Below are positions 21,912 through 35,352 of a stretch of 39,701 bases of DNA, piece after piece. The position numbers and the translations under genes are program-made. Each line of letters begins with the position of its first letter. Within the stretch, counting starts at the first letter, position 1. The notes beneath the pieces are model-generated. The model ran no database searches, was not told where the DNA came from, and was given only the letters and a program-made list of their open reading frames with translations. The stretch comes from Eubacteriales bacterium (GTDB lineage Bacteria > Bacillota > Clostridia > Christensenellales > Aristaeellaceae), in the NCBI GenBank assembly GCA_021371895.1, contig JAJFVI010000032.1:1-39701 (forward strand), read 5' to 3'.

Positions 21912-22967
21912 TTACCCGATCTTCTCCCCGCAGTTGGGGCAGAATTTGGTGCCGGGCGTCACTTCCGTGTTGCATTTCGGGCACTTGGTGGCTACTGCCT
22001 GCGCTGCGCCGCATTCCGGGCAGAAGCGGCTGCCTGCGGGAATCGGCTTGCCGCAGGATACGCAGGGAACCGTCTGCGGCTGTGCCGCGGTCGGCGTCTG
22101 TTGTGTGCCCGCCATGCTCTGTGCAAACATCTGTCCCATCGCCGCGCCCGCGCCCATGCCAACGCCCATGCCGGCCATGCCGCCGCCGGGGTTATTGGCC
22201 GCCTCACGCATCGCCTCGGCCGCCTGGTACTGGCTGTATTTGTTCAGGTCGCCAACCACACCCATAGAGGTGCGCTTGTCGATGCTCTTTTCCACTTCTT
22301 CGGGAAGGCTGATGTTCTCGATCACGAAGCTGGTCAGCGACAGGCCCAGCGATTCCAGCTTGGGGCTGAGCGCCTTAAGCGCGTACTGGCTCAGTTCCTC
22401 GTAGTTGGCTGCCAGATCCAGCGCGGGAATCTTGCTTTCGGCAATCGCGTCGCTCAGGCCCGATACCAGCGTGCGCTTGATCTGCCCTTCCACGTCTTCC
22501 ACGGTGAACATGGCGTTGGTACCGAATACTTCCTTGAGGAACGTCTCGGGGTTAGTGACCCGGAAGGCAAAAATGCCAAACGCCCGGATGCGGATCATAC
22601 CGAAATCGGTGTCCCGCATCATCACGGGGTTGCTGGTTCCCCATTTGCGGTCGAGAAACTGTTTGGTGTTCACAAAATAAATGTCCGACTTAAAAGGGGA
22701 ATTAAAACCGAACTTCCATGATTTCAGCGCGGTCATAATGGGCATGTTCTGGGTCGTCAGCTCGTAGCGGCCAGGCTGATACACATCCGCAAACTGCCCT
22801 TCGTTCACAAAAACCGCTACCTGGCTTTCGCGAACCGTCAGCTGCGCGCCCATCATGATTTCCTTGCCGTTCATATCGTAACGGTGAACCATGGTGTTTT
22901 GGGTATCGTCCTTCCACTCGATGACGTCGATCAGCTGGTTGGTGACGATGTTTTTAATGAAACCCAT
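21912..22967 (-). CDS. SPFH domain protein with C-terminal double zinc ribbon (YdjI-like)
   Basis: A 351-residue protein of the SPFH/band-7 class often called virion core protein-like or YdjI. The SPFH core spans about residues 20-260 (FIKNIVTNQLIDVIEWKDD, RESQVAVFVNEGQFADVYQP, FGIFAFRVTNPETFLKEVFG). A flexible Gly/Met/Ala-rich linker follows, then two zinc ribbons, CVSCGK...CPECG and CPKCN...CPNCG. It has no membrane segment; Bacillus YdjI works with PspA-type envelope stress proteins. Two in-frame ATGs exist (22973 and 22967); the second is preferred because it is nine bases from the GAGGGG site and matches the usual MGFIK start. It lies 34 bp after the receiver-like gene, so the two share a promoter. 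Confidence 0.88.
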   Translation of the reverse strand: MGFIKNIVTNQLIDVIEWKDDTQNTMVHRYDMNGKEIMMGAQLTVRESQVAVFVNEGQFADVYQPGRYELTTQNMPIMTALKSWKFGFNSPFKSDIYFVNTKQFLDRKWGTSNPVMMRDTDFGMIRIRAFGIFAFRVTNPETFLKEVFGTNAMFTVEDVEGQIKRTLVSGLSDAIAESKIPALDLAANYEELSQYALKALSPKLESLGLSLTSFVIENISLPEEVEKSIDKRTSMGVVGDLNKYSQYQAAEAMREAANNPGGGMAGMGVGMGAGAAMGQMFAQSMAGTQQTPTAAQPQTVPCVSCGKPIPAGSRFCPECGAAQAVATKCPKCNTEVTPGTKFCPNCGEKIG

Positions 22968-23001
22968 ATGCATGTACCCCTCTCTTTTTGTCTGCCCGCC
23001 C

Positions 23002-25392: not shown

Positions 25393-27702
25393 TTACGGCC
25401 GGCGAACACCTCTTTGCCCCATCGTACTCACGATGCGGGGTTGCGCAGGCTGCGTTCCTCCCTGCATCGCCTCACGGGGAGACGCAAGCGGGGCGTAGGG
25501 GCCAAACCCTCCAGAAGGCGCTTCCGTTTGTGGCATATACGCCTGCTCGTCTGCCGCGTATCCCCTGAGGGTGCTCACGATCCGTACCGGCGCAAGCGGC
25601 ATCGGCGTTAATACAGGCGTTGGCTGCGGCATACGTTCCATGGCGGGGGGCGGCATAGGCGTACGCAGGCCATTCGTTGCTCCACCCGCCATCGCGGGCG
25701 TATGGAAATAGGGTGGGATTTCCGGCGCTGGACGCGCGCCTATCCATACGGCCGGCGCGGGAGCCACGGCGCGTGCCGGTGAAGGCGCGGCGTACGGCAC
25801 GTAAGCCGCGGCGCGTGCCGGGGCAGTAACCGTCGTGAACGGCACATTAGCCGCGGGCGTCACGTCGCGTGCCTGTACGGGCTGCCGTGTAGCAACGATA
25901 ACTCGATCGTTGGACGAAGATTTTGTTTGCCATTCCGCCTGTGTGTTCGCGGCGCGGTGGTAGGCGGTTTCAACAGGCGCTGGCGGTTGCACACGGCGTG
26001 CTGCTGCCGGTTGCGCTTCTCGCGGCGCATATGGCGCGGGTACGGCGGCAGGCGTGTTTTCCGAGAACACGACCGGTTGCTTTACAGGCACGGGCTGTGC
26101 CACACTAACTTGCGTGCGCGGCGGAGCAGCAACGGCCGCAGCCGCCGTCTGGACAGTCTCGGGCCGCGCCTCGCGCGTTACACGTGCCACAGGCACGGCA
26201 TTCAGTTCGACCTCCGGCATGATAGGCGGGCGATTGGTCGGTGCGGGCTGTGCCGCATTCACTTGTGCGCGCGGCGGTGCGGCGACAGCTGCCGCTTGGA
26301 TGGTCTCGAGCCGCGCCTCGTGCGTGACTGGTGCAATGGGCACGGCGGCCAGTTCTGCTTCTGGCATTACGGGCGGGCGATTGGTCGGCGCAGGTTGTGC
26401 CGCGCGTACTTGCGCACGCTGCGGGGCGATGACGGCCGCTGCCTGGACAGTCTCGAGCCGCGCCTCGTGCGTGACTGGTGCAATGGGCACGGCGGCTGGT
26501 TCGACTTCCGGCATAACACGCGGGCGATAGGCCGGCAGTGGCTGTGTCACACTAACTTGCACGCGCTGCGGGGCTACGACAGCCGCCGCCTGAACGGTTT
26601 CGGGTCGCGCTTCGTGCGTGACTTGCGCTACGGGCACCGCGACCGGTTCGACTTCTGGAATGACAGGCGGCTGATAAGTCCGCGCGGCATACGCAACGGC
26701 GGTAGGTTCGTCATAGGCTGCAAAGGCGTTATATTCGGCCTCAGCAGGCGCGGACCATTGCGGAACCGCTGTGGGCTGCGCGGAAACGGATGGCATTGGG
26801 ATGTCCGATGCCTCGAAGGCAGTCTTTTCGATGTCGTGTCGCTGCTCCTGCTGTACAGGAACGGTATAGGCGGCGGGGTCGGCTTGCACAGGTGCGTAAC
26901 GCTGCGTATAAACGGCGCGCGATACGGAGGCGGCGGCCGCTTCGATAGCGGCAACCGGCATCGGCGGTTTCACCGCCGGGGCAAAGACGGCTTCAGGCGT
27001 AGCCGCAACAGGGGTGATAAACTCATCGGGTTCGGCCTCCACGGGGGCGGGGCTCTCCCAGGTCGTCGCGCCGTAAACAATCTCTTCCATTTCTTTGGCC
27101 GTAGGTTTGGTAGTCGGGAACAGGAGCGAGTGCGGTTCGGGAATATCGGCGGCAACCACGGGAGTTTTCCACTTCTTGGACTCCGCAGTCATTTCCGCAG
27201 AGGCTGCGGAAATCGTATCATCCTTCGGGGCCGTAAACGACGGCCGGGTATCCACGGGCGCGGCGGAGACCGTATCCGTCTTCGGGGCCGTAAACGACGG
27301 TCGGGTATCCACGGGTGTGGCGGCAGTTACGCGCGGAACGCGCACGCGGTTTGGTTTCTCCTCGGCTTGCGTTTCCGGCTTGGACTCCGCCTTCTTTTCC
27401 GCTTTCGGCGACAGAAAGCGCGATTTAAACAGCGCCTTTTCCGCCACGCTTTTCAAAATGCCGCCCAGCAACAGCATTACCATTCCGACGATGAACACGA
27501 AATAGTTGTGATCCAGACAATACTGGATCACACCGTTGACGCCGTTCAGCAGGGCGCTGTCGCCCTGCGCCGAAAAAGAAGCGACGATGCTCTGCACTCG
27601 CTCGTTTTCGATCATGGGAACCGCGGTAGCCAGAACGCCCATCAGCGCCACCAGACCGCCGATAAAGCATAAAAGCCTTCCGAATACTCTTAAAAACCTC
27701 AT
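25393..27702 (-). CDS. Membrane-anchored Pro/Ala/Val-rich protein with 49-residue repeats
   Basis: A 769-residue protein. Two membrane segments lie near the N-terminus (about 10-30, LLCFIGGLVALMGVLATAV, and 68-87, FVFIVGMVMLLLGGILK), followed by a basic stretch and a very long low-complexity tail of Pro, Ala, Val and Thr, probably disordered. A 19-residue repeat (PVDTRPSFTAPK...) occurs twice near 130-165. Four tandem 49-51-residue repeats lie at about 343-540, each with PEVEP/PEAEL, VTHEAR and APQR/APPR blocks. No enzyme domain is seen. GAAGG precedes the ATG. It diverges from the VWA-phosphatase-kinase triad over 190 bp, and its many Thr make it a possible kinase substrate, which is speculation. 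The family is not recognised. Confidence 0.75.
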   Translation of the reverse strand: MRFLRVFGRLLCFIGGLVALMGVLATAVPMIENERVQSIVASFSAQGDSALLNGVNGVIQYCLDHNYFVFIVGMVMLLLGGILKSVAEKALFKSRFLSPKAEKKAESKPETQAEEKPNRVRVPRVTAATPVDTRPSFTAPKTDTVSAAPVDTRPSFTAPKDDTISAASAEMTAESKKWKTPVVAADIPEPHSLLFPTTKPTAKEMEEIVYGATTWESPAPVEAEPDEFITPVAATPEAVFAPAVKPPMPVAAIEAAAASVSRAVYTQRYAPVQADPAAYTVPVQQEQRHDIEKTAFEASDIPMPSVSAQPTAVPQWSAPAEAEYNAFAAYDEPTAVAYAARTYQPPVIPEVEPVAVPVAQVTHEARPETVQAAAVVAPQRVQVSVTQPLPAYRPRVMPEVEPAAVPIAPVTHEARLETVQAAAVIAPQRAQVRAAQPAPTNRPPVMPEAELAAVPIAPVTHEARLETIQAAAVAAPPRAQVNAAQPAPTNRPPIMPEVELNAVPVARVTREARPETVQTAAAAVAAPPRTQVSVAQPVPVKQPVVFSENTPAAVPAPYAPREAQPAAARRVQPPAPVETAYHRAANTQAEWQTKSSSNDRVIVATRQPVQARDVTPAANVPFTTVTAPARAAAYVPYAAPSPARAVAPAPAVWIGARPAPEIPPYFHTPAMAGGATNGLRTPMPPPAMERMPQPTPVLTPMPLAPVRIVSTLRGYAADEQAYMPQTEAPSGGFGPYAPLASPREAMQGGTQPAQPRIVSTMGQRGVRRP
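26083..26676 (-). repeat. Four tandem 147-bp coding repeats
   Basis: Units at 26676-26530, 26529-26383, 26382-26236 and 26235-26083 (the last is 153 bp, with two extra codons). They encode versions of a 49-residue block starting YQPPVIPEVEP, YRPRVMPEVEP, NRPPVMPEAEL and NRPPIMPEVEL. Units 2 and 3 are nearly identical in DNA, pointing to recent duplication or unequal exchange. Confidence 0.85.
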
Positions 27703-27749: not shown

Positions 27750-27892
27750 TTTCGACAGGCGCGGTTCACCTTCCTTCTCCAAGGCAACATGCTTTTTAAC
27801 AAAGTTCTTCAATCGTACGGAGGAAAAACGCACTCGACGAAGAATAGAATAATAAACCTATTTTGGCTTACCAAGCACCCAAGGAGGTAGCC

Positions 27893-28573
27893 ATGGAAAA
27901 ATATCAACTGACCTACCACGTGGACATGGTCTTTTGTATCGATGCGACGGGAAGCATGCGGCACGCGCTGGAGTTGGTGAAGCACAACGCCCTGAACCTT
28001 TACAAAGATGTGACCTTCGCCATGGAAAAGAAGCATAAAGTCATTAGCCGGATGCGCATCCGCGTGATCGCTTTCCGCGATTATGTTGCCGACGGCGAGC
28101 AGGCGATGCTGGCCAGCGATTTCTTTGTTCTGCCGGAACAATCGCAGTTGTTTTATGAGTGCGTCAGCGATATTACCGCACAGGGCGGCGGTGACGTCCC
28201 CGAGGACGGGCTGGAGGCGCTGGCCTACGCGATCCGCAGCGATTGGACGCGCGAAGGCGTGAAGAAACGGCATATCGTCGTCGTCTGGTCGGATGCGCCG
28301 ACCCATCCGCTGGGGCACGGGAAGATCGCGCCCTGGTACCCGGAGGGAATGGCCCGGGATTTTGAGGAATTAAGCTTGTGGTGGGAGGACGAGCAACTGG
28401 GCGGCGCGATGGACGAAAATGCCAAGCGCCTCTTGATGTTCGCACCCGACGCCCCGGAATGGAGCCGGATCTCCCAACGCTGGGCGCAGGTCATCCACGT
28501 GCAAACGGTAAGCGAGGGCCTCTCGGAACTGGATTACCAGCAGGTGGTCGACGCGGTTTGCAACACCATCTGA
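27893..28573 (+). CDS. VWA-domain protein (TerY-like)
   Basis: A 226-residue protein that is almost entirely one von Willebrand A domain. The metal-ion site (MIDAS) is complete: DMVFCIDATGSM (Asp17, Thr19, Ser21), QGGGDVPEDG with Asp101, and HIVVVWSDAPTH. There is no signal peptide or membrane segment, so it is cytoplasmic. AGGAGG before the ATG at 27893 fixes the start. VWA proteins of this type next to a PP2C phosphatase and a Ser/Thr kinase were described in comparative genomics as the TerY-P triad, a phosphorylation-based signalling unit linked to tellurite/stress systems; the two partner genes follow here. No TerC, TerD or other ter genes are in the window. It could be the phospho-regulated adaptor of the unit. 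Confidence 0.88.
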   Translation: MEKYQLTYHVDMVFCIDATGSMRHALELVKHNALNLYKDVTFAMEKKHKVISRMRIRVIAFRDYVADGEQAMLASDFFVLPEQSQLFYECVSDITAQGGGDVPEDGLEALAYAIRSDWTREGVKKRHIVVVWSDAPTHPLGHGKIAPWYPEGMARDFEELSLWWEDEQLGGAMDENAKRLLMFAPDAPEWSRISQRWAQVIHVQTVSEGLSELDYQQVVDAVCNTI

Positions 28574-28647
28574 ATCGTTTGAAAAACTTAAACGCGGGCG
28601 CCTCCCACGCCATTGCGGGCCAGGCCGCCCAAAGCGGCGCTGCAGTG

Positions 28648-29655
28648 ATGAAAAAAGACGAAACAATCGCGGACGGGCAGGGCTTCGTGGTGGATTACGA
28701 AGCGGTTTCCCAGGCGAATGAAGACAGTTTTACCGCCGAGACGGACGCTCTGGGCGGTTTCTTGTGTGTGGCGGACGGCTGCGGCGGCGGCGGCTCGCGA
28801 CGGTACGAAAAGCTCGCTTACCGAACGGAGGCGTATTATGCCGCACGCATCGCCGTGGATTGTGCGCGGGCTTGGGCCGCACCGTTCCACGGCATACCGC
28901 TTCCCGCCGACGAGCGGGAGGCGCGGCCGCACGCGGAACATCTCGCAGACGATCTTCGGCGGCGGCTGGGTGAATTTCAAACCCTGCACCGCGAAGATGC
29001 CCCTTCCCACATCCTCGTCAACCGGTTGAACCGTCCCCTACCCACCACGCTCTGCACAGCGCTCATCGACGCGCGCGACACAGGAAGCCTGTCCGCCGTG
29101 TTCTTCTGGGCGGGCGACAGCCGCGGTTATGTGCTTTCCCCTACCGGCCTGCGCCAATGCACGGCCGACCACCTTTCCGGGCGGCTCGACGCGATGGAAA
29201 ACCTGTATCAGGACGCAAGGCTAAGCAATCTGGTTTCCGCAGACGGGAATTTTACTTTAGATTGCTTCGGCCTGACCCTGCCCAAGCCATGCGTCGTGCT
29301 TACGGCGACGGATGGGGCTTTCGGCTATCTGCCCACGCCTATGGAATTTGAACTGCTTTTACTGCAAACGCTGCGCAAGTCCGCAAGCCTGCATAGCTGG
29401 CAGATGCGGCTTCAAAACGCGCTCAAGCGCGTCGCGGGCGACGACGGGACGCTGGCGCTGGCCTGTTACGGCGTACAGACCTTTGCGCAGCTGCAAGCTT
29501 TCTTCGCCCCGCGCCGTGCGCAATTACAGGCTGACTTCGTTACGCCCGTGCGCCGCCGTCGGCAAAACCCGGCTTTCGCGCGCAGCCTTTGGGAAGAATA
29601 CCGGAAGGATTACCAGCTTTGCGAGGAGGGGCGGCATGCGGATTGGCGCTTATGA
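28648..29655 (+). CDS. PP2C-family Ser/Thr phosphatase
   Basis: A 335-residue PPM-type phosphatase that would remove phosphate from Ser/Thr with two metal ions. Motifs follow in order: QANEDSF (residues 22-28), VADGCGGGG with the metal-binding Asp43, FFWAGDSRGYVL, and LTATDGAFGYL; the final Asp block (GDDGTLALA) is also present. A C-terminal extension from about residue 280 is rich in Arg and Gln (RRRRQNPAFARSLW). The start is uncertain: ATG 28648 fits the homology but has no clear ribosome binding site, and an upstream TTG at 28579 or a GTG at 28645 is possible. It lies between the VWA and kinase genes and overlaps the latter by 20 bp, so the phosphatase and kinase should be made together. 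Confidence 0.85.
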   Translation: MKKDETIADGQGFVVDYEAVSQANEDSFTAETDALGGFLCVADGCGGGGSRRYEKLAYRTEAYYAARIAVDCARAWAAPFHGIPLPADEREARPHAEHLADDLRRRLGEFQTLHREDAPSHILVNRLNRPLPTTLCTALIDARDTGSLSAVFFWAGDSRGYVLSPTGLRQCTADHLSGRLDAMENLYQDARLSNLVSADGNFTLDCFGLTLPKPCVVLTATDGAFGYLPTPMEFELLLLQTLRKSASLHSWQMRLQNALKRVAGDDGTLALACYGVQTFAQLQAFFAPRRAQLQADFVTPVRRRRQNPAFARSLWEEYRKDYQLCEEGRHADWRL

Positions 29656-30574
29656 GTGCGTAACCCCGCTTACGACTGCGGGCAGCGGCAGCGCGCACTG
29701 GTGCGTGGCCGTCCGAGAGGGGCAGAAGTATTTTTTAAAGCAATTCCTCTCGCCCGTGCAGCCGGACGCGTTATCTTCCGCCGCATCGGAGTTGCGCCAC
29801 AGGCAGCGGGAGCGCTGCGAAGCCTTTGAACGCCGCAAGACCGCACTGTACGCGGCGCTGCGATGTACGCTGGGCGACTGCGTGGTGCCTGTAACGGATT
29901 TCTTCGCTTTTGAGGGGCGGTATTATGCGGTTTCGGAGTATCTGCCCCAGCCAATGGAGACGCTGGAAACCATAGGCCGGGTTTCTCCCCAGCGGGCGCG
30001 CAAACTGCTTGGCGCGCTGGCGTACTGCCTGGGCCGCCTGCACGCGCAGGGTATCGTACACGCCGATCTGAAACCCGAACACGTGTTATTGCAACGCGAC
30101 GGCGAAGAGGAGCGCGTGCGCCTGATTGACTTTGACAGCGGCTTTACCCAAGACGATCCGCCCGCGGAATCGCACGACATCGAAGGCGACCCGGTTTACC
30201 TTGCGCCGGAAACTTTTCTGCGCATCAGCGGTCAGCCCGGCACGCTGAACCGTAAGCTGGACACCTTCGCCTTCGGGATTACCGCCCACCGCCTGTGGAC
30301 AGGCGAACTTCCCTCTCTTGCGGGGGGCGCGACCTACCCCTACGAAGCGGCGCTTTCCGGCAGCGCGATACAGATATCGGAAGAACTGCCCCCGCCCCTG
30401 CGCTGGCTGATCGGTCAAACGCTGGCCGTCCACCCGGAGGATCGTCCGGACGACGGTCTGTTGGAACGGCTGCTCTCTCCGTCGTTAGCGCGCCCGCGTG
30501 CCGCCGGGCTGGTCGAAAACGGCCTGACCCGCTTTTGGCTGGAGGATTGGGAGTCTGCGCCGGATCAGGAGTAA
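29636..30574 (+). CDS. Ser/Thr protein kinase-like protein
   Basis: A 312-residue kinase-fold protein without a membrane segment. A loose glycine-rich loop (TTAGSGSAHWCVA), the ATP-binding Lys35 in KYFLKQF, and the catalytic loop VHADLKPEHVLL are seen. Asp144 and Lys146 are kept, but the Asn normally found five residues after the Asp is His149. The metal-binding DFG is DFD (IDFDSGF), followed by GDPVYLAPETF and DTFAFGITAHRLWTG. Activity is likely but with altered metal binding. It lacks the PASTA repeats of PknB-type kinases. GAGGAGG lies just upstream of the ATG, which is 20 bp inside the phosphatase gene. It completes the VWA-phosphatase-kinase triad. Confidence 0.88.
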   Translation: MRIGAYECVTPLTTAGSGSAHWCVAVREGQKYFLKQFLSPVQPDALSSAASELRHRQRERCEAFERRKTALYAALRCTLGDCVVPVTDFFAFEGRYYAVSEYLPQPMETLETIGRVSPQRARKLLGALAYCLGRLHAQGIVHADLKPEHVLLQRDGEEERVRLIDFDSGFTQDDPPAESHDIEGDPVYLAPETFLRISGQPGTLNRKLDTFAFGITAHRLWTGELPSLAGGATYPYEAALSGSAIQISEELPPPLRWLIGQTLAVHPEDRPDDGLLERLLSPSLARPRAAGLVENGLTRFWLEDWESAPDQE

Positions 30575-31314: not shown

Positions 31315-32442
31315 TTATTGGTAAAAGTCGTGCAGTGCGCGCAAAACCGCGGTGCAGTCTTCCTCGCTCAGGCCGTAGTACATCGGCAGACGCAGCAGGC
31401 GTTCGCTCTCGCGCGTCGTGTAGCGATCTTCCCCGTGGAAGCGGCCGTATTTGCGCCCTGCGACCGCCGAATGCAGGGGGATGTAGTGAAACACCGCCAT
31501 AATATCCCGGCCTTTCAGGAACGCCGTGAGCGCCGTGCGCTCCGTGATGTCCGCGCATTTAATGTAATACATATGGGCGTTGTGCTCGCAGCCGTCGGGA
31601 ACCGCAGGCAGTTCCAGCTTTCCCGCCGTTTGCAGATCCTTAAGTCCCGCGTGATACTGGTTCCAGCGCGCCATGCGCCAGGCGGTCATCTGTTCGTGGT
31701 TTTCCAATTGACAAAGCAGATAGGCCGCGTTGATCTCGCTTTGCAGGATGGATGAACCCAAATCCACCCACGTATACTTATCCACCTGCCCGCGGTAAAA
31801 GCGGCTGCGGTCGGTGCCTTTTTCACGCACGACCTCGGCGCGCTCCACAAAGCGCGGGTCGTTGAGCAGCGCCGCTCCGCCCTCGCCCATGCTGAAATTC
31901 TTGGTTTCGTGGAAGCTGTAACAGCCGATGTCGCCCAGCGCGCCGGCCGCCTTGCCCTTCCAGCGGGCGTCCACGGCCTGCGCCGCGTCCTCCACCACGA
32001 GCATACCGCGCTCCCGGGCCATGGCGTTGATGGCGTCCATATCGCAGCAGATGCCGGCGTAATGCATCGGCACGATAACCTTCGTACGTTCGGTAATCGC
32101 CTCGCGGATGCGCTCCGGGTCGATATTCATGGTATCGGGGCGGATATCCGCAAACACAAGGGTAGCGCCACGCAACGCAAACGCGTTGGCGGTGCTGGAA
32201 AATGTGAACGACGGTAAAATCACCTCGTCGCCCGCCCCCACGTCGCACAGGATGGCGGCCAGTTCCAGCGCGCTGGTGCCGGAGGTGGTCAGCAGCGCCT
32301 TCCTGGTGCCGGTCATCTGTTCCAGCTGTTCGTGGCAGCGGCGGGTAAACGGCCCGTCGCCACAGATTTTATGATTATGGATGGCTTGTAAAACGTATTC
32401 GTCTTCCTGACCAAAATACGGGGGAACATTAAAGGGAATCAT
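31315..32442 (-). CDS. rffA: dTDP-4-amino-4,6-dideoxygalactose transaminase (RffA/WecE-like)
   Basis: A 375-residue PLP-dependent DegT/DnrJ/EryC1 aminotransferase. It would convert dTDP-4-keto-6-deoxyglucose to dTDP-4-amino-4,6-dideoxygalactose, a building block of surface polysaccharides. MIPFNVPPYFGQEDEYVLQA at the start and ALLTTSGTSALELAA are typical of RffA. VVEDAAQAVDA holds the Asp that contacts the PLP ring nitrogen, and YSFHETKNFSMGEGGA holds the Schiff-base Lys. GGAG before the ATG at 32442 supports the start. It has its own promoter (32493-32521), separate from the ATP-grasp genes upstream. No other nucleotide-sugar gene is in the window, so the substrate must be supplied from elsewhere in the genome. 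Confidence 0.92.
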   Translation of the reverse strand: MIPFNVPPYFGQEDEYVLQAIHNHKICGDGPFTRRCHEQLEQMTGTRKALLTTSGTSALELAAILCDVGAGDEVILPSFTFSSTANAFALRGATLVFADIRPDTMNIDPERIREAITERTKVIVPMHYAGICCDMDAINAMARERGMLVVEDAAQAVDARWKGKAAGALGDIGCYSFHETKNFSMGEGGAALLNDPRFVERAEVVREKGTDRSRFYRGQVDKYTWVDLGSSILQSEINAAYLLCQLENHEQMTAWRMARWNQYHAGLKDLQTAGKLELPAVPDGCEHNAHMYYIKCADITERTALTAFLKGRDIMAVFHYIPLHSAVAGRKYGRFHGEDRYTTRESERLLRLPMYYGLSEEDCTAVLRALHDFYQ

Positions 32443-32492
32443 GTCGACCGCTCCGTTTCCTGCCGCGGGCGGGCCGCGACCGATTACCTTGG

Positions 32493-32521
32493 AGTATATC
32501 ACAAACCCACGCGGTTGTCAT
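32493..32521 (-). promoter_or_regulatory. Promoter of the aminotransferase gene
   Basis: -35 ATGACA (32516-32521, one mismatch) and -10 TATACT (32493-32498), 17 bp apart, on the minus strand. Confidence 0.7.
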
Positions 32522-32602
32522 GAATCGCGGGCAGCGCCGTGCCCTCCCTGTTCGTACGCGTCACCGCTTCGTCCCACGCACAGGCGGGGAGGATCGTTCC
32601 GC

Positions 32603-33460
32603 CTATACGCGCGAACGAATCGCGTCCAGATACAGCCCGGCAATATCCAGTTTGCTTACCTGGTAGAGCATCCGGCTGCCCACCACGTCCTCTACCTCGC
32701 TGAGTACCGGCTCTCCCTGATCGTAGAGCATATCCACCCCCGCCAGGCACAGCGGCGCGCCGGCCTGCGCAAAGCGGTTGATCACGCTTTGCGCCAGCGT
32801 CTGCTCCTGCGGGGTCAGGGTATGGAGTTCCACGTCGCCACCGCGTTTGAAATTGCTGATGATCCCCTGCCGCGCCGTACGCAGCACACCCGCGGCGATC
32901 TCGCCGAAAAGCACGTAAACCCGCAGGTCCTTCCCCGCGTCGCCGGCAATCTTCTGCTGCACGATGTCCCCAGGCAGAATCTGATCCACGGCCTCCCGCC
33001 ATTCGTACTCGTTGTTCACCTGCCGCACGTTTTCCCCGCCGTGCCCGCGCGCGGGCTTGACCACCAGCGGAAAATCGCCTTCATCGGGGGCGACGGCGTA
33101 GCGGTGGCTGATAAATCTGGTTTCCAGCATCGGGATGCCCGCGAGAAACTGCTGCGTGCGTCGCTTGTCGTTACAGATGCCGCACACGCGCGCGCCGTTG
33201 AACACCGGCACGCCCATCGCCTCGAACTGTGCGCTGGTCAACTCGTCCCGCTGGCGGGAAATCACAAAATCCGGCAAAATTTCGCGTCCGCTTCGGCGCA
33301 GGCTCAGCTCGCCGCCTGCGCGTACCCCCAGCGCAAGCTCGCTCACGCGCACCGTTTGGATGTCCAGCGCGCGCTGCTTCCCTTCGCGCTCGATATACTC
33401 CGCAAACTCGCGGTTTTGCGCCAGATCGCTCTCTTCGTATAATAACCATCCCGTTTTCAT
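32603..33460 (-). CDS. ATP-grasp ligase, RimK family (second of a pair)
   Basis: A 285-residue ATP-grasp protein of the RimK type, which joins a carboxylate to an amine with ATP. After an N-terminal pre-ATP-grasp domain, ICNDKRRTQQFLAGIPMLET marks the start of the grasp fold. FPLVVKPARGHGGENVRQV is the ATP-binding loop with its Lys, DLRVYVLFGEIAAGVLRTAR is the central block and GEPVLSEVEDVVGSRML the metal-binding end, where an Asp (EVED) stands in place of the more usual EVN. The start at 33460 overlaps the preceding gene's stop as ATGA and has GGAGGC upstream. Only about a fifth to a quarter of the sequence resembles its neighbour, so the two are distinct partners, perhaps a heteromer or two successive steps. 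Confidence 0.85.
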   Translation of the reverse strand: MKTGWLLYEESDLAQNREFAEYIEREGKQRALDIQTVRVSELALGVRAGGELSLRRSGREILPDFVISRQRDELTSAQFEAMGVPVFNGARVCGICNDKRRTQQFLAGIPMLETRFISHRYAVAPDEGDFPLVVKPARGHGGENVRQVNNEYEWREAVDQILPGDIVQQKIAGDAGKDLRVYVLFGEIAAGVLRTARQGIISNFKRGGDVELHTLTPQEQTLAQSVINRFAQAGAPLCLAGVDMLYDQGEPVLSEVEDVVGSRMLYQVSKLDIAGLYLDAIRSRV

Positions 33461-34338
33461 CGGCCCGCCTCCAGACGGTCGGCGATCTCGCCCAGCAGCT
33501 CGGTCGCCATGTTGACGCCCGTACAATCCAACGTCGTTTTGAAATGCGCGTTGCTGTTGACCTCGCACAGTAGCGGCCCTTCCTTGCCAAATAGCACATC
33601 CACACCCGCAAACGTAAGCCCCAGTTCCTTCGCAGCGCGAAGGGCGAGCGCCGCTTCCGCAGGCGTGGCTTCGTAAGGTTTCATGGAACCGCCCAGCGTA
33701 AGGTTGCTGCGGAAATCGCCGTTGGTGCTTTTACGCAGTGTGCTGGCGGCCACGCGCCCGCCCACGACGTTGATGCGGGTATCCCGTCCGTAGCTTTCCG
33801 CTACCAGCTGCTGAAAGAGCATCGGCGTGCCCGCCAGGGCAACCACCTTGGCCCGGAGAGATTCCAGATCGTCCAAAAGATACACTTGCTGGCCAAAGGA
33901 GCCGAAACATTCCTTGAGCACCAGCGGAAGGCCCAGCTGCCGCGCCGCCTCGTCCACAAAGCCGGTTTCAGGGTAACCGACGGAGGGAAAGGTTTTCGGC
34001 GCCAGAATCGTATACGGCATCGGCAGCCCCACACGCTTGAGCGCAAGGTAGGTAAGCGCCTTATCGTCGCAGTACAGGATGCTCTGCGCGCTGTTGAACA
34101 CCGGCAGGCCGCGCTGTTCCAGCTGCGTGGCCAAGGCCACGTCCTTATCCCAGAAGAGCACGAAATCGTATGTTTCCGGCGTAAAGGCGGGCGTATCCAC
34201 TACGGTGCATAGCTCCGCGTTGGTACGTACGGAAAACTCCATCCCGCGCTGCTGGGCGGAATGAAGCAATAAGGTATAAAGCTCACTGAATTTGGAGGAA
34301 TGCAGAAAAGCATTGACAACCATCAAACCATGCGGCAT
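33457..34338 (-). CDS. ATP-grasp ligase, RimK family (first of a pair)
   Basis: A 293-residue RimK-like ATP-grasp enzyme. The N-terminal part (MPHGLMVVNAFLHSSKFSEL) is a Rossmann-like pre-grasp domain; ILYCDDKALTYLALKRVGLP begins the grasp fold; LPLVLKECFGSFGQQVYLL binds ATP; GRDTRINVVGGRVAASTLRK and LLCEVNSNAHFKT are the metal and substrate blocks with a canonical EVNSN. Family members add Glu or other amino acids to proteins, cofactors or peptides; the acceptor here is unknown. The ATG at 34338 is preceded by AGGGAG; the frame is open further upstream but without a site. Its stop overlaps the second ligase gene (ATGA), so the pair is translated together. Confidence 0.87.
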   Translation of the reverse strand: MPHGLMVVNAFLHSSKFSELYTLLLHSAQQRGMEFSVRTNAELCTVVDTPAFTPETYDFVLFWDKDVALATQLEQRGLPVFNSAQSILYCDDKALTYLALKRVGLPMPYTILAPKTFPSVGYPETGFVDEAARQLGLPLVLKECFGSFGQQVYLLDDLESLRAKVVALAGTPMLFQQLVAESYGRDTRINVVGGRVAASTLRKSTNGDFRSNLTLGGSMKPYEATPAEAALALRAAKELGLTFAGVDVLFGKEGPLLCEVNSNAHFKTTLDCTGVNMATELLGEIADRLEAGR

Positions 34339-34560
34339 GGCGTCGGCTCCCTTCCGGGGCGCAGCGTCCGCGTAAAGGCGCGGTTTCGCCCCCGCCCGGT
34401 TAACCTGTTTCAAGTCTTTCATACACGGGAGCGTGCCGGTGATTCTGGCCTTGACCAAGGAGCGGAATCGAAGGTGCAGCCGTGCCTGCGCCGTAATTTC
34501 ACAACGATGCCTGAGCGTAAAAGCGCCGCAAGTTCAATGTGATATGGGTCTGCAATCGTA

Positions 34561-35220
34561 TTACAGCGCAATCTCCGTGGGCTGGCTGTTGAGGTGTAGA
34601 ATAATCTCGTAAAGAGCGTCCAGCACGTGCGGGAAACAATATTCGTCATAGCCGCTCATCAAAAGCCGGGTGCTGATCTCCAATTGAATCGCCGGCACGC
34701 GGCAGCGCGCCGCAACCGTGGCGCTGACGCTGTTGGGGTCAATGGCCGCATAAGGCTTGTCCACGGTGATGCGCTTCACGCCATGCCGGTGAAAAATCTC
34801 GGTGATGATCTCGACAATGTCCGTTTGCCCCATCAGGTTTCGCCCCAGCCCGGTGCCTATGCACACGTCCATGTCACGTTCGGGCTTCATCTGGTGCAGA
34901 TCCACCACAAAGCGGATGTCGTGCTGCTTTACGTAGCGGCAAAGGGCATCGCGGTAATCGCTTACGGGGTCGTGGTTGGCGTCGTCGCGCAGGTGGCGGG
35001 TTTTATAAATTACGGGGCAGCCGATACGTTCGTGCAAAAGACGACAAAGCATCCCCGTAAACCGCTCCGCGCATTTCACGGAGCCGTTTCTCGTTTGTAG
35101 CATCGCATGAGGCGCGCTGAGCATCGTATCCCCGGTTCCTTCCAACAGTTCGTAGCTGCAATAGTGTTCTTCGTCGGTAAAGTAAGCCAGAGCCCGGTCG
35201 ATCTGTTGTTCGGTGGTCAC
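34561..35220 (-). CDS. N-formylglutamate amidohydrolase-like protein
   Basis: A 219-residue zinc hydrolase of the N-formylglutamate amidohydrolase (FGase) superfamily, related to carboxypeptidase-like amidases. Visible motifs are MLSAPHAMLQTRNGS (first metal ligand), TRHLRDDANHDPVSDYRD and FVVDLHQMKPERDMDVCIGT (DLH with second metal ligand), with a late Glu in PAIQLEIS. The start is a GTG at 35220, set by AGGAGG at 35229-35234; an in-frame ATG at 35247 lacks one. It lies 222 bp upstream of the ATP-grasp pair on the same strand. FGase-like hydrolases next to ATP-grasp ligases were noted in surveys of amidoligase gene neighbourhoods, where they probably trim or recycle amide-linked products. 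No histidine degradation genes are near. Confidence 0.82.
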   Translation of the reverse strand: MTTEQQIDRALAYFTDEEHYCSYELLEGTGDTMLSAPHAMLQTRNGSVKCAERFTGMLCRLLHERIGCPVIYKTRHLRDDANHDPVSDYRDALCRYVKQHDIRFVVDLHQMKPERDMDVCIGTGLGRNLMGQTDIVEIITEIFHRHGVKRITVDKPYAAIDPNSVSATVAARCRVPAIQLEISTRLLMSGYDEYCFPHVLDALYEIILHLNSQPTEIAL

Positions 35221-35352
35221 AGGGGCTACCTCCTTGGTATATTCCATGGTACGCCGGCCGCAAGGCTTTTCAGGGCCGCGTGTCATTCAAACCGGCGAGC
35301 CTAAATATTACCACTCGTATGTTCGTTTGTCAACCGAAGGCTTCTGCGGCAC

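Follow-up and report, generated by a model that had tools for sequence, protein, structure and literature searches.

The TerY-P triad is composed, in the account given in PMC11090510 (citing Anantharaman et al. 2012), of a TerY-like VWA protein, a PP2C-type phosphatase and a Ser/Thr kinase with a C-terminal zinc ribbon. Links to restriction systems are described for both TerY-P and TerY-P-like modules, and the TerY-P-like versions with an OB-fold kinase represent stand-alone defence (PMC11090510). A different use of a kinase and a PP2C phosphatase is found in the ReoM/IreB systems, in which PrkA phosphorylates a dedicated regulator and PrpC removes the phosphate (PMC7286690).

In the current work, a module is described that is encoded within a stretch of 39,701 nucleotides (the whole of which is referred to as the window), and in which a VWA protein, a PP2C-type phosphatase and a protein kinase are combined with a divergently encoded membrane protein (Table 1). 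An earlier note, made from the sequence of the window, had described the three former genes as a triad of overlapping or adjacent genes, and their coordinates and classes were upheld by profile searches, structural models and recurrence in other genomes, the reading frames of the phosphatase and the kinase overlapping by 20 nt. The same note had pointed to an under-described signalling system, an assessment that is maintained here, with the membrane protein now shown to belong to the module.

Table 1 Features of the module and their positions in the window.
Feature	Position	Strand	Details
Membrane-tail protein	25393..27702	-	769 aa; hairpin of two TM segments with conserved outer loop; extended tail rich in Pro, Ala and Glu
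C-terminal motif RIVSTMG, candidate phospho-switch	25417..25437	-	Conserved in complete ends
Internal second motif copy RIVSTL	25567..25584	-	Motif list
147-bp (49-aa) tandem repeat in tail	26093..26670	-	3.9 copies; Tandem Repeats Finder
Conserved N-terminal hairpin domain	27418..27702	-	Invariant M1, G15, P29, N33, F43, N56, G80 (alignment)
Weak SigH-like promoter toward membrane gene	27750..27777	-	GAAGGAAGG-N12-GTCGAAA, 3 mismatches; sequence and aligned gaps
SigH-type promoter for triad	27819..27845	+	GGAGGAAAA-N11-GAAGAAT, 0 mismatches; promoter scan with shuffles
VWA protein	27893..28573	+	226 aa; Pfam VWA_4 9e-8
PP2C-type phosphatase	28648..29655	+	335 aa; NCBIfam Stp1 4e-6; Pfam PP2C_2 weak, 0.002
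Ser/Thr-type protein kinase	29636..30574	+	312 aa; Pfam Pkinase 6e-20
His149 codon, replacing catalytic-loop Asn	30080..30082	+	Motif HAD-LKPEH
DFD motif, residues 165-167	30128..30136	+	Asp165 invariant

Comparison of the triad with TerY-P

As in TerY-P, the genes for the three protein classes are next to each other in the triad, whereas it differs in the absence of ter genes, in a kinase that carries neither a zinc ribbon nor an OB fold, in its dedicated membrane-tail partner, in its SigH promoter and in the His that replaces an Asn of the kinase. No Pfam match to a C-terminal zinc ribbon or OB fold was obtained for the kinase, and in its AlphaFold model the kinase fold is followed by a low-confidence tail of 30 residues in which no CxxC pair is present. 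Searches for TerD and for TerC, the controls of which were positive, gave no match in the draft genome to which the window belongs (2.9 Mb, 347 contigs and 90.8% complete, absences from which are therefore not final), and the lack of ter genes noticed earlier thus holds beyond the window; on these grounds a ter linkage of the triad was rejected. TerY-P itself is often, but not necessarily, linked to such genes. Both a fusion of the kinase and a link to ter genes were looked for; neither was found, and the module is therefore TerY-P-like and not TerY-P, so that of the match to TerY-P that had been proposed the likeness stands and the identity with TerY-P proper does not. A TerY_C domain search returned no match in a run in which no control responded either, and a tblastn search of plasmids with the VWA protein, performed without a TerY positive control, matched no TerY-annotated gene; the tblastn matches to plasmids and phages were distant or unannotated only.

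Distribution of the module and linkage to the membrane-tail protein

Relatives were collected by searching 150 related genomes, analyzing the regions around the matches and then scanning one genome per species, genes outside the triad being called with a purpose-written, simple codon-usage caller. The genes for the VWA protein, the phosphatase and the kinase were found side by side in dozens of genomes, far above chance, and all three are present in nearly every complete locus of the two sets distinguished here, which were drawn from the 80 loci listed out of 148 confirmed. The close set comprises at least 19 loci from Candidatus Limiplasma and Clostridiales with a VWA identity of 77-85%, while the wide set comprises at least 60 loci (an approximate count) with a VWA identity of 52-60%, from Lachnospiraceae, Oscillospiraceae, Blautia and Faecalibacterium among others.

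A homologue of the membrane-tail protein is encoded divergently to the VWA gene in all 19 close loci listed, at a distance of 93-229 bp in those measured, and in none of the wide loci listed. Profiles of the VWA protein and of the first 100 residues of the membrane protein were then used to search 250 genomes of the family, a profile score of over 440 bits being taken to denote a close-type VWA. The genomes from which the N-terminal domain of the membrane protein was recovered are precisely those with a close-type VWA, 21 in number, as against 0 of the 229 others, and in all 21 the gene for the membrane protein is adjacent and divergent to that of the VWA protein. The gene-neighbourhood survey that the earlier note had suggested therefore revealed a strict co-occurrence of the membrane protein with the close-type triad (21/21 versus 0/229). 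The close set forms one clade in the kinase tree (support 99/97), and the linkage therefore represents a single gain followed by inheritance and counts once. The flank on the kinase side varies between loci, with wecE and ATP-grasp genes, pilus-like genes, groEL, or AraC and sugar transport genes, and a transketolase gene is found on the opposite flank in 11 of the 19 close loci. The four genes are thus a stable unit, of which the membrane-tail protein is the constant fourth member. The module belongs to a single family of uncultured gut Clostridia, within which two genera carry it; some of these bacteria are named Candidatus Limiplasma.

The wide Firmicutes triads (L057-L117) resemble the close triad in their homologous VWA protein (52-60% identity), phosphatase and kinase, and in the absence of ter genes among the neighbouring genes that were read, whereas they differ in a kinase that retains Asn, in zinc-ribbon neighbours that replace the membrane-tail protein and in the lack of perfect upstream SigH sites. 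In 50 of the 60 wide loci listed, zinc-ribbon genes are present at a distance of 2 kb or less from the triad, and they are enriched nearby (94/204) as compared to farther away (19/219; Fisher p about 7e-19). They may encode partners or substrates of those triads, and triads seem to associate with differing partners, of which the membrane-tail protein would be that of the close clade. Many of these zinc-ribbon genes (loci L057-L117) were also seen to encode Pro-rich or TM segments.

Several other arrangements were observed. A second, wide-type triad with a kinase Asn (L031, G004:C18) is present in a genome that also carries a His-type triad. Two loci from the same bacterial order (L034 and L035) are larger systems, in which at least two VWA genes are combined with genes for a PP2C of more than 700 aa and for a long kinase, and resemble the duplicated-VWA TerY-P layouts. 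A plasmid of Herpetosiphon (Chloroflexota) bears a triad with the same gene order as in the window. A wide-type VWA gene (55%) is located at positions 2091-2777 of MT836186.1 (L133), a human faecal contig which is entered, unverified, as ‘Bacteriophage sp.’ and is probably bacterial and mislabelled. In the window itself, the region beside the triad (31315-35286) encodes a WecE-like aminotransferase, two ATP-grasp proteins and a small hydrolase-like protein, which are conserved together in the genus and possibly constitute a peptide or cell-surface biosynthesis operon, while an SPFH/Band 7 protein with a C-terminal double zinc ribbon is encoded at 21912-22973, with a few genes lying between it and the membrane-tail protein.

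The membrane-tail protein and its C-terminal tag

The repeat-rich membrane protein that the earlier note had placed opposite the triad was confirmed as such by two predicted TM segments and a 147-bp repeat. The two hydrophobic segments would form an N-terminal hairpin, the loop between its helices containing the conserved residues P29, N33, F43 and N56, and no convincing Pfam family was found for this domain. By the positive-inside rule, both ends of the protein are predicted to be cytoplasmic. The tail varies widely in length and is unalignable between orthologues, and in one orthologue (L024) a zinc ribbon is located within it.

At their ends, the orthologues nevertheless share a motif that hardly varies, (R/K)I(K/R/V)STMG(K/R). 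Among 18 complete tail ends (one of them taken from contig fragment L119), the I, the S and the T are each found in all 18, the M and the G each in 17, an R or K before the I in 17, and a K or R two positions after the M in 15. Approximately half of the orthologues possess a second, internal copy of the motif, for example IRSTF. In a DNA pattern search of seven genomes, the membrane-tail protein was the only one with the motif in frame at its end. A regulon of STMG-tagged proteins was rejected, the other pattern matches corresponding to an unrelated multi-pass membrane protein or to short, unsupported frames. The motif was also absent from the protein ends of the neighbours of wide-set triads.

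SigH-type promoters in the intergenic region

The SigH consensus of the Bacillus subtilis regulon is RNAGGAWWW-N11/12-RNNGAAT. SigH promoters are characterized by AGGA and GAAT boxes 17-18 nt apart (PMC12456013), and in the triad promoter of the window this distance is 17 nt. The promoter scan covered 19 gaps in both directions (38 tests, with spacers of 11 to 14 allowed), and a site without mismatch was retrieved in 9 of these tests as against 0.04% of shuffles, and a site with at most one mismatch in 25 as against 0.8% of shuffles. The layout of the gap is conserved across the close loci and reads as two back-to-back SigH promoters, the site facing the membrane gene being weak in the genus of the window and closer to the consensus in the majority of second-genus orthologues. 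An inverted repeat in the gap was considered as an operator or RNA hairpin and rejected, paired SigH promoters giving a better fit to the spacing and the outer boxes. No perfect SigH site was found within 3 kb upstream of the triads in the 60 wide loci listed.

The genome of the window encodes SigH (351.8 bits, cut-off 294.8), and both features of SigH-regulon membership, an upstream promoter and an encoded SigH, are therefore present. Three genomes of the second genus gave a match to Spo0A above the family cut-off, but none was obtained in the genome of the window (G000, 90.8% complete) or in G003 (97% complete), and SigH control therefore need not imply sporulation. Since the triad starts, as judged from the sequence, at a SigH promoter, the module is probably made in the transition or stationary phase, when growth slows. 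The combination of a full-strength SigH without Spo0A in G000 and G003, in contrast to the presence of both in three sister-genus genomes, is an observation in itself, and it is possible that sporulation was lost in these two lineages while SigH was kept.

Conserved features of the VWA protein, phosphatase and kinase

The VWA protein is the best conserved member of the module (77-85% identity in the close set), and its AlphaFold model is confident (pLDDT 90.5). The fold is integrin beta-I-like, the best PDB matches of the model being integrin beta chains (Foldseek; TM-score about 0.6-0.68 by query length). Because the MIDAS residues D17-x-T19-x-S21 and D134 are conserved in the alignment, the VWA protein is likely to bind metal. 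The integrin beta MIDAS binds peptides.

In the phosphatase, D43, D157, D222, D265 and D266 are conserved among 77 sequences, and its gene adjoins that of the kinase in 17 of the 18 close loci that are complete at that place. One genome (G005) contains a triad locus without PP2C, and an intact homologue of 305 aa with GNTR replacing GDSR is encoded elsewhere in that genome.

The kinase is modelled with a normal kinase fold (AlphaFold, pLDDT 91.6), structurally near PknB, PknA, DAPK, CaMKII and phosphorylase kinase. Lys35, Asp144 and Asp165 are invariant, and the features of an active kinase, namely the Lys, the HxD Asp, the DFx Asp and the kinase fold, are all present. The catalytic-loop Asn expected of an active eukaryotic-like Ser/Thr kinase is not present; His149 occupies its position in 19 of 19 close-clade kinases, as opposed to Asn in 59 of 59 wider relatives, and is thus a marker of the close clade. 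Asp167 of the DFD motif is found in all close kinases and in 54 of 59 wider relatives. DFD is consequently a trait of the kinase family and not a local oddity, the latter having been ruled out by this family-wide occurrence and by the precedent of the Mnk kinases, which rank among the better hits when the PDB is searched with the kinase profile. Mnk1 and Mnk2 share with this kinase DFD instead of DFG, whereas they are eukaryotic, retain the Asn and have no VWA or PP2C partner. Of the two substitutions highlighted in the earlier note, His for the catalytic-loop Asn and DFD for DFG, both residues are as described, but it is the change from Asn to His, rather than DFD, that is unusual in this kinase. 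At their C-termini, the close-clade kinases carry a conserved basic end (NxLSRFMK-like), and many wide-set kinases end in FxxxAGDL.

Proposed mechanism and alternative explanations

The constant company of the triad with a Ser-Thr-tagged membrane protein suggests an on/off switch at the membrane. In the reading preferred here, held with confidence evenly balanced between acceptance and doubt, the four genes form a SigH-driven module in which the kinase and the phosphatase toggle the Ser-Thr tag of the tail, with the VWA protein as a docking scaffold. The membrane-tail protein would be anchored by its two-helix hairpin, the short conserved outer loop of which may sense an envelope or external condition, and its disordered tail would lie in the cytoplasm, as the positive-inside rule indicates, bearing one or two I-x-S-T-(M/F) sites. 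The kinase would phosphorylate the Ser or the Thr of these sites, the PP2C would remove the phosphate, and the VWA protein would dock on the tail or on the enzymes as a metal-dependent part for assembly or read-out.

This toggling of the tag is favoured by the retention of I-x-S-T at 18/18 complete ends of an otherwise unalignable tail, by the conservation of the catalytic residues of both enzymes together with the standard fold modelled for the kinase, and by the strict linkage of the membrane protein to the triad while the kinase-side flank varies. The reading is also supported by the basic residue before the I in 17/18 ends, by the frequent internal copy of the site and the restriction of the terminal one to this protein in the genomes searched, by the SigH promoter together with the encoded SigH, and by the resemblance of the VWA protein to integrin beta chains. 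Against it stand the origin of that linkage in a single evolutionary gain, the His in place of a key metal-binding Asn of the kinase, and the triad of G005 without PP2C. The nearest working analogy would be ReoM with PrkA and PrpC: there, as with IreB and IreK/IreP, a kinase/PP2C pair toggles a dedicated regulator (PMC7286690), although in those systems the kinase is located in the membrane, whereas the close module combines a soluble kinase with a membrane candidate substrate and an additional VWA protein, and the regulators are not homologous. A further point against this reading is that a search of the draft genome of the window returned no FHA-type phosphothreonine reader.

A docking peptide would account for the invariant Ser-Thr tag equally well. 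In that case, which is judged rather unlikely, the tag would bind the VWA protein or the kinase, the membrane-tail protein would merely tether the triad, and the true substrate would be the VWA protein or another protein. The tag is, like docking peptides, short, terminal and near-invariant including its flanking basic residues, and the most conserved member of the module is the integrin-like VWA protein; however, the invariant core of the tag is a Ser-Thr after basic residues, which is typical of a kinase site, this core is often duplicated as I-x-S-T-F, and an integrin MIDAS usually takes an acidic ligand whereas the tag has no conserved acidic residue.

That the module is a TerY-P-like anti-phage cassette appears improbable. 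The links of TerY-P and TerY-P-like modules to restriction systems and the stand-alone action of the OB-fold-kinase versions (PMC11090510) would accord with such a role, as would weak matches of the kinase to defence-system kinases in PADLOC; yet generic kinase domains match many kinase profiles, PADLOC, which may or may not include TerY-P models, gave no match for the VWA or the membrane protein, no nuclease or other effector adjoins the module, and both its inheritance within two genera at partly conserved sites (the transketolase flank in 11/19 loci) and its SigH promoter are atypical of defence islands. An equally improbable alternative is that His149 makes the kinase a pseudokinase, the PP2C acting on the product of another kinase and the triad serving as a regulated binding scaffold, for although the Asn is one of six residues acting in ATP/substrate binding and catalysis (PMC1821047) and the His is fixed across the whole clade, Lys35, Asp144 and Asp165 are invariant, His is able to bind metal, all but one of the ten key kinase residues are dispensable in some family (PMC1821047), and the PP2C partner lies beside the kinase in 17 of the 18 close loci complete there.

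Significance of the module

Three layers could not be seen by the earlier note: the invariant Ser-Thr motif at the C-terminus of the tail, the SigH promoter, and the status of His149 as a clade marker. VWA-PP2C-kinase triads are common in gut Firmicutes, and for those that are ter-less no described substrate or trigger was found. The close clade supplies a candidate substrate in the form of a near-invariant tag of ten residues, a candidate trigger (SigH) and a natural active-site variant, and the function of the triad is therefore directly testable with peptides and purified proteins. From the comparison of the two sets, it would seem that the partner of a triad is exchangeable and may be a membrane protein or a zinc-ribbon protein. 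More tentatively, and as a possibility on the doubtful side, the module may be a transition-phase switch in which a soluble His-for-Asn kinase and a PP2C toggle the Ser-Thr tag of a membrane sensor, and an integrin-like VWA protein reads it. If true, bacteria would possess a membrane signalling circuit whose design is without earlier description.
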